A stretch of DNA of 35,689 nucleotides from an uncultured Prevotellaceae bacterium. Its GTDB lineage: Bacteria > Bacteroidota > Bacteroidia > Bacteroidales > Bacteroidaceae. Positions within the stretch are counted from its first letter, which is position 1, and every line of letters begins with the position of its first letter. This document shows positions 3,446 to 35,689 of the stretch, piece by piece. Where the stretch lies: contig CAMKMK010000002.1 of the NCBI GenBank assembly GCA_946413885.1, positions 1 through 35,689 of the forward strand, read 5' to 3'. The notes beneath the pieces were generated by a model. It was not told the DNA's origin. It saw nothing but the letters and a program-made list of their open reading frames with translations, and searched no databases. Both the position numbers and the translations under genes were made by a program.

Positions 3446-4612
3446 ATGAGTAACCAACGATACATGATGCGGGGTGTGAGTGCTGCCAAGGAGGACGTGC
3501 ACAACGCCATCAAGAACATCGACAAGGGAATTTATCCCCAAGCATTCTGTAAAATCATCCCTGACATCCTGGGAGGCGATCCTGAATACTGCAACATCAT
3601 GCATGCCGACGGAGCAGGCACGAAGAGTAGCCTTGCCTACATGTACTGGAAGGAGACGGGCGACCTGAGTGTCTGGAAAGGCATTGCCCAGGATGCCCTC
3701 ATCATGAACACGGACGACCTGCTTTGCGTGGGGGCTGTTGACAACATCCTGGTAAGCTCGACCATCGGACGCAACAAGATGCTGATTCCAGGCGAAGTGA
3801 TCAGCGCCATCATCAACGGGACAGACGAGCTGCTGCAGGAGATGCGCGAGATGGGTATCGGCATCTATGCCACAGGAGGCGAGACAGCCGATGTGGGCGA
3901 TCTGGTGAGGACCATCATCGTGGACAGTACCGTGACCTGCCGCATGAAGCGAAGCGACGTGATCGACAACGCCAACATCCGCCCAGGAGACGTTATCGTG
4001 GGACTGAGCAGCTGCGGAAAGGCTACCTATGAAAAGGAATACAACGGCGGAATGGGCAGCAACGGACTGACCAGCGCCCGCCATGACGTGTTCTCGAAAT
4101 ACCTGGCAGGGAAGTACCCTGAAAGTTTTGACCACGCCGTGCCTGAGGAACTTGTGTACAGCGGAAAATACAGGTTGACAGACCCCGTTGAGGGCAGTCC
4201 CATCGATGCAGGCAAACTGGTGCTTTCCCCCACACGTACCTACGCTCCTGTCGTCAAGCAGATGCTGGACGAGCTGCGTCCCAAGATTCATGGCATGGTG
4301 CATTGTACGGGTGGCGCGCAGACGAAAGTGCTGCATTTCGTGGGCGAGAATTGTCGCGTCATCAAGGACAACATGTTCCCCGTTCCTCCTCTCTTCAAGG
4401 CTATCCAAGACTGCAGCGGAACGGACTGGGCAGAGATGTACAAAGTCTTCAACATGGGCCATCGCCTCGAAGTATATGTGGCTCCTGAGGATGCAGAAAA
4501 AGTCATCAGCATCAGCAAGAGTTTCAACATCGACGCTCAGATCGTAGGCCGCATCGAGGAAGGCAAGAAGAGCCTCCTCATCAAGAGCGAGTTCGGCGAA
4601 TTCGAATATTAA
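3446..4612 (+). CDS. purM: Phosphoribosylformylglycinamidine cyclo-ligase (AIR synthase)
   Basis: MSNQRYMMRGVSAAKEDVHNAI…; AIR synthase-like motifs 'MHADGAGTKSSLAY', 'GGETADVGD', 'VGLSSCGKATYEKEYNGGMGSNGLTSARHDV'. In-frame ATG 3446 preferred over the ORF-track start at 3392. Confidence 0.85.
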   Translation: MSNQRYMMRGVSAAKEDVHNAIKNIDKGIYPQAFCKIIPDILGGDPEYCNIMHADGAGTKSSLAYMYWKETGDLSVWKGIAQDALIMNTDDLLCVGAVDNILVSSTIGRNKMLIPGEVISAIINGTDELLQEMREMGIGIYATGGETADVGDLVRTIIVDSTVTCRMKRSDVIDNANIRPGDVIVGLSSCGKATYEKEYNGGMGSNGLTSARHDVFSKYLAGKYPESFDHAVPEELVYSGKYRLTDPVEGSPIDAGKLVLSPTRTYAPVVKQMLDELRPKIHGMVHCTGGAQTKVLHFVGENCRVIKDNMFPVPPLFKAIQDCSGTDWAEMYKVFNMGHRLEVYVAPEDAEKVISISKSFNIDAQIVGRIEEGKKSLLIKSEFGEFEY

Positions 4613-13932: not shown

Positions 13933-15941
13933 AAGAAAACATCAACATCTCATCACCTGAGTTCCAAAATGCGCTCTCGCTGATTAAGTTTACTCATCAG
14001 TCTGTTTTCCTTACTGGAAAGGCAGGCACAGGAAAAAGCACCTTCTTGCGCTATATTCGGACGGAGGTAAAAAAGAAAAGTGTCGTGCTGGCTCCCACAG
14101 GTATTGCAGCTATCAATGCAGAAGGAAGTACCTTACACAGTTTCTTCAAGCTACCTTTCTATCCTCTTTTGTTAGATGATCCGAAATTCTCAGTTCGACG
14201 CATCCGAGATTTTCTAAAATACAAAAAGAGTCAGATAAAACTGCTCAAACAGGTGGATCTCATTATCATTGATGAGATTTCGATGGTTAGGGCAGATATC
14301 ATCGACTTTATTGACCGTATTCTGAGAGTATATTGTCAAAATATGCGGGAACCCTTTGGAGGGAAACAAATGTTGCTGATAGGCGACGTGTTCCAACTGG
14401 AGCCGGTTGTGAAGTCTGACGAAAGGGAAATATTAAGCAAATTCTACCCCAATCCTTATTTCTTCTCAGCTCACGTGTTCCAGCAGATGAAATTGGTCAG
14501 CATCGAGCTAAAGAAAGTTTTTCGTCAGAAGGATGCCGGTTTCATAGCAGCCTTGGATCACATAAGACAGAACAAGATTACAGATCTGGAACTAAAACTT
14601 CTCAATAGCCGATATGCAGAAGAAGGAGAGATCGTGAAACAAGAAAGCGAGGGACTTAACATCGTTTTGGCAACACGAAGGGACAACGTAGACTTCATCA
14701 ACCAAACCGAGTTGGATAAACTCCCTGGAAACACCGTTCTGATGAAAGGCGTCGTGACAGGGGATTTCCCAGAATCGTCACTCCCTACTCTACTTCAATT
14801 GGAATTGAAAGAGAATGCACAGATTATCTTCATCAAGAACGACCCTGACCACAGATGGGTCAATGGAACGTTAGGTACCATTTCCAGTTTCAACCCTGAG
14901 AATGGATCCATTGAAGTGATCACAGAAGATGGCGATATAGTAAACGTAAGCGAAGAACGATGGAGTAATGTACGATACACCTACAACGAAAAAGAAAAAA
15001 AGATAGAAGAAGAAGAGTTGGGCACTTTCACCCAATATCCTATCCGACTTGCCTGGGCCATTACAATCCACAAAAGTCAAGGTTTGACATTCCAGAATGT
15101 AACCATCGATTTTAGTGGAGGAACCTTTGCTGGTGGACAAGCCTATGTGGCTTTAAGCCGTTGTACAAGTTTAAATGGAATAACCCTAAAGAAAAGAATT
15201 ACTCGCTCTGACATTTTTGTCCGACCCGAAATTATCGAGTTCGCAGCACGTTTCAATGACCAACAAGATCTCCAGCGAGCCCTTATGGAAGCAAAAGCCG
15301 ATACTGAGTACCAAGCCTGTGCAAAAGCTTTCGAGAAAGGAGATATGGCTGCATGTCTGGAACATTTTTTCATCGCCATCCATACTCGATACGACATCGA
15401 GAAACCCACAGTCAAACGTCTAATCAGGAAAAAGCTGAACGTTTTCAAACGCTTGCAACAGCAGCGAGACGAGATAAAACTACAATTGGAGGCTCAGAAT
15501 GAACGCCTAAAGAAATATGCTACAGAATATTACATGATGGGGAATGAATGTTTGACACAAGCACACGCTCCTAAAGCTGCCATAGCAAATTACTCCAAGG
15601 CATTGGAATTGTATCCAAATTACGTAGATGCATTAGTAAGGCGTGGAATAACGTATCTTGATGAAAAACAACTAAATGAAGCGCTTCACGATTTGAACCA
15701 AGCAGTCCAACTGTCACCTCGATCTTTCAAGGCAAACTATAATCGAGGAAAAGTTTTCATGGCAAAAGGGTTCTATGAAGAAGCTGCAAACGATTTCGTC
15801 AAAGCGACCAGTCTAAACACGGAACATGCTCAATCTCATAAACTTGCAGGAGATGCCTTCGCAGCCATGGGAAAGGAAGATACAGCCGCCATGTACTGGG
15901 AATTAGCCGAGCAATTGAGAGACAAAAAGAAAAGAAGATAA
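13929..15941 (+). CDS. PIF1/RecD-like superfamily 1 helicase with C-terminal TPR repeats
   Basis: Walker A 'LTGKAGTGKSTFLRYI', Walker B 'LIIIDEISMV', 'HKSQGLTF', 'AYVALSRC'. TPR-like 'ALELYPNYVDALVRRGITYLDEKQLNEALHDLNQAVQLSPRSFKANYNRGKVF'. ATGA overlap with the PBP gene. Confidence 0.9.
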   Translation: MKENINISSPEFQNALSLIKFTHQSVFLTGKAGTGKSTFLRYIRTEVKKKSVVLAPTGIAAINAEGSTLHSFFKLPFYPLLLDDPKFSVRRIRDFLKYKKSQIKLLKQVDLIIIDEISMVRADIIDFIDRILRVYCQNMREPFGGKQMLLIGDVFQLEPVVKSDEREILSKFYPNPYFFSAHVFQQMKLVSIELKKVFRQKDAGFIAALDHIRQNKITDLELKLLNSRYAEEGEIVKQESEGLNIVLATRRDNVDFINQTELDKLPGNTVLMKGVVTGDFPESSLPTLLQLELKENAQIIFIKNDPDHRWVNGTLGTISSFNPENGSIEVITEDGDIVNVSEERWSNVRYTYNEKEKKIEEEELGTFTQYPIRLAWAITIHKSQGLTFQNVTIDFSGGTFAGGQAYVALSRCTSLNGITLKKRITRSDIFVRPEIIEFAARFNDQQDLQRALMEAKADTEYQACAKAFEKGDMAACLEHFFIAIHTRYDIEKPTVKRLIRKKLNVFKRLQQQRDEIKLQLEAQNERLKKYATEYYMMGNECLTQAHAPKAAIANYSKALELYPNYVDALVRRGITYLDEKQLNEALHDLNQAVQLSPRSFKANYNRGKVFMAKGFYEEAANDFVKATSLNTEHAQSHKLAGDAFAAMGKEDTAAMYWELAEQLRDKKKRR

Positions 15942-30044: not shown

Positions 30045-32315
30045 ATGAAAAGAAAATCCATTATCAGTCTGCTTATCTTCAGCATGGGTCTCGGCATGAT
30101 GACCACTTCATGCGAGGATATGCTGTCACCCGACAGTGAGCGCCATTCATACACCGTGGCTCAGGATACCCTCTACTCTTATTGGGGTATCTTGAAGTCA
30201 CTGCAGAATGTGGCTGAGCGTTACATCATTCTGGGTGAGTGCCGCGCTGATTTGGTCGGCGGCACAAGCTATGTCAGCGATACCATCAATGCTATCCTGA
30301 ACTTTGGACAGAATGGTTATGCTGAGAAGTATAAGGATGGTAGTTGCCGTTATCTGAAAGCCAGCGACTATTATCACATCATCAACAGTTGCAACAGTTA
30401 CATTGCACGTTGCGATACCATTCGTACCACAGGTACCCTCCAGCCTTACATGCTGAAGGAGTATGCTCAGGTAGAAGCCATCCGCGCATGGACCTATCTC
30501 CAGTTGGTTCAGGTTTACGGCAGAGTACCCTTCTATCTGGAGCCTATGCTGACTACGGATGACATCAACGAGTTCATGAGCAACCCCAATCACCCGACTG
30601 TTACTACCGACAATCTGGTTGACATGCTGGGTGACCGTCTGCAAGCTATGTGCAAGGTTGAGAAGCTTTATGGCTATCCTCAATATGAAAATTATGGTAG
30701 AACCCGTACTGTTTGCCACAGCACCAAGTGCATGTTCCCCACCTATCTGGTATTGGGAGACCTCTATCTTGCAAAGGGTGATGCTGCATCTTGTGCCAAG
30801 GCTGCACAGTGCTACTATGACTACATTACTTACCTGCCACCTGAGACCAACTCCATTACTCCCTATTGTGGTCCTTTGAGAGTCAGCTATTACAGTATTG
30901 GTAACATCATGGAGGGTGAGGATGAGCCCGATTACATCCGCACTGGTAACCCTTACACAGAGAGTGGCAAGGTAAGCTACAGCACCGAAGCCATCACTTG
31001 CATCCCCAGCAGCACCAACAAATTGTGGGGTACCGTACTCACAGGTGTTAACCAATTGTTCGGCTTCAATGCTACCATCAGCGTATCTACCTATAGAAAC
31101 AGTAATACTACCGACAATGAGGATGATGATGTCATGACGAGTTCCTCCATATCTCTAAGCATGAACATGGACCGCGAGTTGACTGCCAGCAAGGGTTATG
31201 AGGCTCTCTGTGACTCTCAGAAGTATGAGTGCTACATTGGTACCAGTACTGACCCCATGACTGAACTGATTGTTCTTCCTGACGTAGGCGATGCCCGTCG
31301 ATCCTGGACTCCCGAGTACATTATATACAATGGCGATGAAATGCAGTACGGTCACTTCGTAACGAAGCAGAATCCAGGCGGCAGTTTCACCACTTGCTAT
31401 CCTATGATCTACCGCAAAGCTACCGTATGGCTGCGCTATGCTGAGGCACTCAACCGTGCAGGTTATCCCAGCTATGCATTCGCTATCCTGAAGAGTGGCC
31501 TTTGCAACAACGACAACTGGTACCCCGATCCTGAGACCGATTATGCAATCAAGGACACCATCTTCTGCTATCCTTACGAATACACCAAGGATGAGGAGAC
31601 TATCCAGGATACAGTTCGCGCTACAGGTCGTGAAGCTTTCGTTGCTGCCCTGCAGAAGTTAGTTGCTGAGGAGAAATTGGCAGAGGAAAACTTCAAGGAA
31701 AAAGATGTATTCATAGAGGCAGCTTCCACCTACAACTATCCCGACGAGACAGCAACCGCAGTTTGCTATTATCTGGATAAGCGTGAGGTTTCCAACCTGC
31801 CTCCTTACATGGACTACACTTCTGCTCAGATGAAGACCAATATTACCTCAGTTCCCATCATTTACAAACTCGACACTTATGCAAATGGATATAGTATGAC
31901 CTCATATCCCAGTGGTACAAGTGTAGGTGAGAACTATCTGACAGCAGGTATCCACAGCCGTGGTTGTGGCCGTATCGCTTACGACGAGCGCAACAGCTCC
32001 TTCAATTACGTTGATCAGGTAGCTAAGAAGGTAAAGGAGAATCACGGTATCAACTTGACCAAGAACGACATCTACAGCGGCGACTATGACGACTTCGTTA
32101 AGGAAGCTGTTGAGGACTTGATCATCGACGAGATGGGTCTGGAGTTGGCATTCGAGGGTACACGTTTCTTCGATTTGACTCGCGTTGCTCATCGCCGCAA
32201 CGACCCCAGCTATTTCGCAAAGCATGTTGCCAAGCGTAATGGCGAAATGGACATGAATCTCTACAACATCCTGTTGAACGAGAAGAACTGGTACCTCCCC
32301 TTCCCTGAGGAATAA
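30045..32315 (+). CDS. SusD/RagB-family lipoprotein (756 aa)
   Basis: Lipobox TTSC|EDML; 'EAIRAWTYLQLVQVYGRVPFYLEP'; 'RYAEALNRAGYP'; 'LIIDEMGLELAFEGTRFFDLTRVAHR'. Confidence 0.92.
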   Translation: MKRKSIISLLIFSMGLGMMTTSCEDMLSPDSERHSYTVAQDTLYSYWGILKSLQNVAERYIILGECRADLVGGTSYVSDTINAILNFGQNGYAEKYKDGSCRYLKASDYYHIINSCNSYIARCDTIRTTGTLQPYMLKEYAQVEAIRAWTYLQLVQVYGRVPFYLEPMLTTDDINEFMSNPNHPTVTTDNLVDMLGDRLQAMCKVEKLYGYPQYENYGRTRTVCHSTKCMFPTYLVLGDLYLAKGDAASCAKAAQCYYDYITYLPPETNSITPYCGPLRVSYYSIGNIMEGEDEPDYIRTGNPYTESGKVSYSTEAITCIPSSTNKLWGTVLTGVNQLFGFNATISVSTYRNSNTTDNEDDDVMTSSSISLSMNMDRELTASKGYEALCDSQKYECYIGTSTDPMTELIVLPDVGDARRSWTPEYIIYNGDEMQYGHFVTKQNPGGSFTTCYPMIYRKATVWLRYAEALNRAGYPSYAFAILKSGLCNNDNWYPDPETDYAIKDTIFCYPYEYTKDEETIQDTVRATGREAFVAALQKLVAEEKLAEENFKEKDVFIEAASTYNYPDETATAVCYYLDKREVSNLPPYMDYTSAQMKTNITSVPIIYKLDTYANGYSMTSYPSGTSVGENYLTAGIHSRGCGRIAYDERNSSFNYVDQVAKKVKENHGINLTKNDIYSGDYDDFVKEAVEDLIIDEMGLELAFEGTRFFDLTRVAHRRNDPSYFAKHVAKRNGEMDMNLYNILLNEKNWYLPFPEE

Positions 32316-32339
32316 GATTGAATCTTACATCTATAACAG

Positions 32340-32370
32340 AAAATCCCCAAGCCACTTGGGGATTTTTTTG
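32340..32370 (+). terminator. Strong Rho-independent terminator of the FAS1/Sus operon
   Basis: AATCCCCAAG (32342-32351) loop CCA, CTTGGGGATT (32355-32364) followed by a T run. Confidence 0.92.
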
Positions 32371-32420
32371 TTACCTGTACTCTACCCTCTATCAACCACA
32401 TCAGTAACAAAGGAAAAACA

Positions 32421-32518
32421 CAACGTGTTGAGTCGGTAAAGACAACACGTTGAAACTGCAAAGACAACACGTTGTGTTTGGGTTTTCAACACGTTGTCTT
32501 GATGGTTTCAACGTGTCG
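32421..32518. repeat. Five-unit 22-nt-periodic array of CAAC(AC|GT)GTTG
   Basis: Units begin at 32421, 32443, 32465, 32487 and 32509 (last degenerate: CAACGTGTCG). Spacers are all 12 nt. Larger inverted repeat AAACACAACGTGTTG (32416-32430) / CAACACGTTGTGTTT (32465-32479). Confidence 0.9.
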
Positions 32519-32582: not shown

Positions 32583-32620
32583 CAACAGCTATACGCTTCG
32601 CTTGAAGTATATAGCTGTTG
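32583..32620 (-). terminator. Inverted repeat downstream of the beta-galactosidase gene, possible minus-strand terminator
   Basis: CAACAGCTATA (32583-32593) / TATAGCTGTTG (32610-32620), followed on the minus strand by TTCTTTTGTGCC. A second perfect 7-bp hairpin, TCAGGTA-TTTC-TACCTGA, is at 32632-32649. Confidence 0.55.

Positions 32621-32664: not shown

Positions 32665-35689
<3,025 letters not shown>

Follow-up and report, generated by a model that had tools for sequence, protein, structure and literature searches.

At positions 32416 to 32518 of the window, as we call the whole 35,689-nucleotide stretch of DNA analysed here from an uncultured Prevotellaceae bacterium, a row of short near-palindromic cores stands between two convergent genes, which raises the question of what kind of element it is and why its units are so evenly spaced. 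The preliminary description had reported five cores at exact 22-nt steps, and direct reading of the sequence bore this out (starts at 32421, 32443, 32465, 32487 and 32509). The array and its surroundings are as follows.

30045..32315, plus strand: SusD/RagB-like lipoprotein gene (PF07980), left neighbour
32338..32368, plus strand: hairpin leading into a T tract where the SusC/SusD operon ends, upstream of the array; -17.8 kcal/mol, z -5.0
32416..32518, no strand assigned: whole array, with spacers that mirror about its middle
32421..32430, minus strand: core 1, CAACGTGTTG, GT orientation, direct read
32443..32452, plus strand: core 2, CAACACGTTG, direct read
32465..32474, plus strand: core 3, CAACACGTTG, direct read
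32487..32496, plus strand: core 4, CAACACGTTG, direct read
32509..32518, minus strand: core 5, CAACGTGTCG, one mismatch, direct read
32583..32620, minus strand: beta-galactosidase gene-end hairpin with a downstream T-rich tract, on the opposite flank of the array; -20.8 kcal/mol, z -5.5
32665..35667, minus strand: beta-galactosidase-like gene, right convergent neighbour, relatives found

The array lies, as had been proposed, beyond the operon terminator and before the 3' end of the convergent beta-galactosidase gene, with hairpins and T-rich tails on both sides. Because each neighbouring gene has a hairpin and T-rich tail of its own, the array sits between two terminator-like hairpins; a terminator scan reported neither of these, and both are visible when the sequence is read and when it is folded. 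Both extended dyads claimed for the array are present, and since its spacers mirror one another, either strand is able to form a single long two-tier hairpin (folding as RNA gave z values of -2.5 on the plus strand and -4.3 on the minus strand). Among the relatives found for the beta-galactosidase, the closest are Bacteroidales MAGs, and several of these come from rumen.

The window array belongs to a lineage-specific family dispersed across the genome, whose members keep a fixed pitch while the core can be swapped. The preliminary description had suggested scanning its own genome (G000, 2.17 Mb) for the exact pair CAACRYGTTG-N12-CAACRYGTTG, and this yielded 135 matches, against 0 for the control, which was the same pattern read backwards. 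Exact pairs were abundant in three of the 139 genus genomes, namely G000, G015 (255 pairs) and G045 (157 pairs); among the remaining 136, two genomes held one exact pair each and the rest held 0. G000 and G015 are sister species in which many syntenic proteins are 92-99% identical, with a median of 88% for reciprocal best hits. In a family-wide sample, four of the tested genomes of a second genus, g30, carried exact pairs (15-33 each), which in three of the four were mostly CAACGCGTTG and in the fourth, G167, were CAACACGTTG with other spacers; none of the 148 other genomes of a phylum sample contained the exact pair. The expectation that the pattern would recur in relatives was therefore right for the 22-nt pitch, which is found more widely, and wrong for the sequence, which is limited to a small clade and is not general in Bacteroidales. 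Phage or viral carriage was rejected, as no three-unit match was found in IMG/VR, and so was a known RNA family, as no Rfam family reached its gathering score for the array (the CRISPR-DR64 model scored 18 bits, with 40 required). Papers containing the CAACACGTTG or CAACGTGTTG strings are unrelated, judging by their titles and abstracts, and our guess is that these occurrences are mostly primer or construct strings.

The spacing of the units is nearly without exception. Across 1.146 Mb of G000 and G015, in which 60 arrays were found, pairs of exact cores no more than 200 nt apart fell at lags of 22 (n = 92), 44 (n = 53), 66 (n = 24), 88 (n = 5) and 110 nt (n = 1), so that 175 of 176 close pairs lay at multiples of 22, the lone exception being at lag 78. 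The same DNA held 181 exact cores, 34 times the 5.3 expected from dinucleotide frequencies, and 159 of the 181 belonged to arrays. Arrays comprise 2-6 cores, mostly 3-5 in an overlapping first set of 43, and their neighbouring units are often near-identical. The spacers had been described as poorly conserved, which is correct at the window locus and incorrect for the family as a whole, where 130 spacers share the consensus AAAYCGCAAAGW; the unit is thus a directional 22-mer, CAACACGTTGAAAYCGCAAAGW, found in either orientation. In most arrays all units point the same way (FFF or RRR), and the orientation switches that do occur within arrays are, by our own count from the listed strings, mostly F-to-R, i.e. 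an inverted arrangement. Strand bias relative to the upstream gene was small (54 against 41 cores). The outer edges of the arrays are T-rich outward on both sides, and beyond the edge T tract no strong consensus was found over 86 array ends, a small subset of arrays having a common upstream leader.

Within the core, the inner ACRYGT is near-invariant and variation at the two outermost bases of each arm affects ~7-10% of cores, values that somewhat overstate conservation because they come from chains chosen for consensus similarity. The centre was AC or GT in 227 of 239 cores, and perfectly palindromic centres (AT, n = 4; GC, n = 1) were far rarer than independent positions would give, with the same overstatement applying to these counts. 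Changes in the core arms comprised 59 single, 15 double uncompensated and 1 compensated, a pattern that fits half-site recognition better than base pairing. The arrays nevertheless fold as RNA better than shuffled sequences on both strands (mean z ~ -2.6).

The pitch persists while the core is replaced by lineage. In the genus sample, 22 was the top long period among non-coding tandem repeats, and the 22-mers differed among the sampled genomes and, in G100, also among loci. In other species of the genus the 22-nt arrays use other cores, such as CCT(A/T)AGG, and genus g30 uses CAACGCGTTG; the pattern CCTTAGG-N15-CCTTAGG had 104 matches in G104 and 86 in G059, with 0 control matches in both, and CCTTAGG at 22-nt pitch was rare or absent in most other genomes. 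Bacteroides and Parabacteroides beta-galactosidase relatives have 22-nt palindromic arrays just beyond the gene. Lags from palindrome to palindrome in non-coding DNA peaked at 22 in three groups, the genus and family sets among them, with a further peak at 44 in G000 plus G015 and in the Bacteroidales set; small bumps at 33 and 55 in the latter are not relied upon, and a small class and phylum sample gave no lag-22 peak between non-coding palindromes. A sequence-blind test for three strong palindromes in a row proved too insensitive. Two arrays on a Segatella hominis replicon have a pitch of 23, so 22 is not universal.

Several individual loci are recorded here for their form. In a phage-like region of Segatella hominis HDD12 (L271, 19855-19937) an array of TCCCTA..TAGGGA at a pitch of ~23 immediately precedes an HU-HIG-like gene, and in Segatella hominis L273 (19509-19651) GAAGCGCTTC-like cores at 23-nt pitch lie downstream of a two-component regulator gene. 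At L102 (7680-7780) the palindrome TTTTCCCACACGTGGGAAAA alternates, in steps of 22 nt, with a second one, a core of the GCAACACGC type. On one contig, L071, near-identical 22-nt arrays of TTGCATCTACATGTACATGCAA occupy two loci (3706-3771 and 15130-15195).

The preliminary description had proposed a test for enrichment in intergenic regions and at convergent junctions; the family proved to be intergenic and enriched at convergent junctions. Among 46 arrays outside predicted genes with both neighbours known, 17 were convergent, 24 tandem and 5 divergent, compared with 64, 252 and 97 background gaps, respectively; genes were called with a simple custom codon model, which makes individual array contexts approximate. 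Arrays thus favour gene 3' ends and convergent junctions and avoid divergent regions, and most array edges that face a gene 3' end lie within ~135 bp of it. One of 26 intervals between arrays was shorter than 5 kb, compared with 7.3 expected when the same number was placed in gaps with context weighting, an over-dispersion that deletion or recombination between close repeats could also produce. A strict array spacing of ~9 kb, suggested by one contig, failed on others, and only the avoidance of close neighbours held. At one syntenic junction G000 and G015 each have four cores, two of which differ by an exchange of the central dinucleotide, and one spacer is the same in both; at another, G015 carries an array within ~240 bp of extra sequence and G000 carries none. 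The junction that holds the window array is common to neither of the sister species G015 and G045. In both of these the convergent partner of the beta-galactosidase orthologue is a smalltalk ORF and not a SusD gene (L241, G015:C41; L242, G045:C60), with no array seen at either junction; the smalltalk ORF facing the gene in G015 is preceded by HU-HIG.

Spacing that is kept while sequence is replaced suggests a constraint on geometry, and hence a protein or complex acting on double-stranded DNA at two-turn steps. We infer, with about even confidence, that the arrays are lineage-specific, genome-wide, phased docking arrays for a dimeric protein on double-stranded DNA, dispersed in the manner of REP/BIME elements; they combine the fixed helical pitch, conserved palindromic half-sites and freer spacers of a phased operator array. 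The near-palindromic core of the 22-bp unit (CAAC, AC/GT, GTTG) would be bound by a putative dimeric DNA-binding protein, and because 22 bp would correspond to two turns at ~11 bp per turn, 3-6 dimers would sit on the same face and could bind cooperatively. Past 3' ends or between convergent genes such a bound patch may separate transcription units as a roadblock or insulator, and it may also be an architectural, BIME-like site. In the minority of arrays that lie just past a promoter -7 box, including those before HU-HIG genes, the same binding would repress. Units would multiply through 22- or 44-bp duplication, and arrays would be gained and lost between sister species. The preliminary description had proposed two explanations, a dimeric protein that binds along one helical face and a mobile family of palindromic repeats; each is partly supported here, and the two may be true together. 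It had also named a partition or replication type of protein, for which nothing was found in support, the arrays being spread over the genome at ~3-36 kb intervals.

It is possible, though on the unlikely side, that the arrays are a palindromic repeat of REP/BIME or MITE type, mobile or amplified and without a dedicated host function, which spreads by copying and 22-bp duplication and persists where insertion does no harm, at 3' ends. The 135 exact pairs of the own genome, the patchy abundance in three of 139 genus genomes, the array present in G015 and missing from G000 with its ~240 extra bp, the absence of the window junction from G015 and G045, the near-identity of adjacent units and the avoidance of divergent regions all speak for such an element, yet no terminal inverted repeats or target duplication were seen. 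The Y1 transposase domain (RAYT, PF01797) was not found in G000 (67% complete), G015 (97%), G045 (62%), G104 or the four array-bearing g30 genomes, and a REP mobilised by RAYT was accordingly set aside for the array-rich genomes. A mobile repeat also leaves unexplained why the pitch is roughly constant across unrelated cores and why core arms and an AC/GT centre stay constant beside drifting spacers.

Bidirectional intrinsic terminators, or 3'-end RNA stabilisers built of repeated stem arms, would account for the T-rich outward edges at both array ends, for the 3'-end and convergent placement, for the long hairpin fold of the window array and for the mostly inverted (F-to-R) switches, and some arrays of other species end with an inverted unit and a T tract (L077). 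However, both genes of the window already have a hairpin and T tract flanking the array, most arrays are uniform direct repeats, arm changes are uncompensated, and RNA pairing supplies no reason for an exact 22-nt pitch; this reading is improbable. Terminator-like hairpins were about equally frequent in arrays and at control 3' ends. Uncompensated arms and little strand bias favour protein half-sites on double-stranded DNA, and with the undetected RAYT transposase they weaken both the hairpin-RNA and the REP-RAYT readings; an RNA role may still exist, since the arrays fold better than shuffled sequences on both strands. The reading as a chance or private low-complexity sequence, or as a CRISPR array, has nothing beyond a repetitive look to recommend it and deserves practically no credence: the core counts (181 against 5.3 expected) and the 0 control matches in the own genome refute chance, and spacers of 12 nt that share a consensus, with no Rfam CRISPR match over the cut-off, are unlike the identical repeats and unique spacers of at least ~26 nt of a CRISPR array.

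The arrays share features with several known systems. Plasmid replication iterons are direct repeats of ~22 bp that offer a Rep protein its sites along a single face of the helix, and the arrays resemble them in unit length and in the one-face placement that their pitch would give; unlike iterons, they are dispersed over the chromosome at gene ends rather than sited at an origin beside rep, and their units occur in both orientations. REP/BIME elements of enterobacteria are associated with RAYT transposases. The present family is, like them, a short palindromic repeat in many intergenic copies, with units alternating or direct, sites at convergent junctions and gene 3' ends, roughly a hundred copies or more in each genome and a lineage-specific sequence; it differs in its 22-bp unit with a 10-bp core, where REP elements have a longer palindrome (20-40 bp; PMC3733652), in a pitch that is exact across unrelated cores and in the lack of a detected Y1 transposase in array-rich genomes. 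Among described repeats, literature searches yielded only PINSR and BrickBuilt. BrickBuilt of Porphyromonas gingivalis has 19 copies in one species, each an intergenic tandem array of up to ~23 direct repeats of 23 nt with a conserved leader and tail, and is classed as a MITE; the same paper cites 22-nt repeats in strain W83 (PMC4596501). The arrays are likewise intergenic tandem repeats in Bacteroidales with a near-equal unit length, but have 2-6 units, a different core and copies that number around a hundred or more, and in general they show neither the conserved leader and tail nor the terminal inverted repeats of a BrickBuilt-type MITE. PINSR of Prevotella intermedia/nigrescens, in the excerpted text of its description, is a 188-bp intergenic element with ~180 copies and no terminal inverted repeats (PMC4755523). 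It resembles the arrays, as far as that excerpt goes, in being a lineage-restricted intergenic repeat without terminal inverted repeats, and differs in that the excerpt does not describe 22-nt phased palindromes for it (PMC4755523).

Reports on the intergenic palindromic repeats of bacteria usually deal with a single sequence, and here the spacing outlasts the sequence. Identifying the binder would open a way into chromosome organisation in a major gut phylum, and might account for lineage-specific repeats of Bacteroidales, including those of 22 and 23 nt in P. gingivalis.

Because HU-HIG genes of two sister species have an array in their leader, HU-HIG is a candidate binder, a suggestive lead that we nonetheless consider doubtful. 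By coordinates, four array sites in G015 that follow a TAnnTTTG box lie ~134 bp upstream of HU-HIG genes, and three in G045 lie 134, 134 and 178 bp upstream. The sole case read directly is L022 (1379-1843), where a degenerate 22-nt array occupies the leader just past a TACCTTTG box and is followed by HU-HIG and then by a smalltalk ORF. The motif TAnnTTTG is the -7 motif of Bacteroidales; a small subset of arrays begins just downstream of such a box, and across all array ends the box shows no enrichment (4 of 120). These leader arrays may be copies of a single duplicated cassette. In Segatella hominis a palindromic array with a different core stands in the leader of an HU-HIG-like gene, most HU leaders examined from Parabacteroides, Bacteroides and Phocaeicola showed no clear array, and the listed CCTTAGG array positions in G104 do not coincide with the HU-HIG genes of that genome. 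HU-HIG as a general neighbour of arrays found no support beyond the G015/G045 clade and one Segatella replicon. A broader and still less probable conjecture is that Bacteroidales chromosomes carry a network of fixed-pitch (22-23 bp) docking arrays, the core being swapped in each lineage alongside a fast-evolving, multi-copy HU-HIG that controls itself through the same array, which would amount to an architectural or insulator system of swappable specificity. At L050 (7782-7917) in G000, an HU-HIG pseudogene fragment shares an intergenic stretch with an array. Positions 1-43 of the window match the smalltalk ORF region of an HU-HIG cassette at 93%, so a repeated HU-HIG/smalltalk cassette probably marks the end of the contig.
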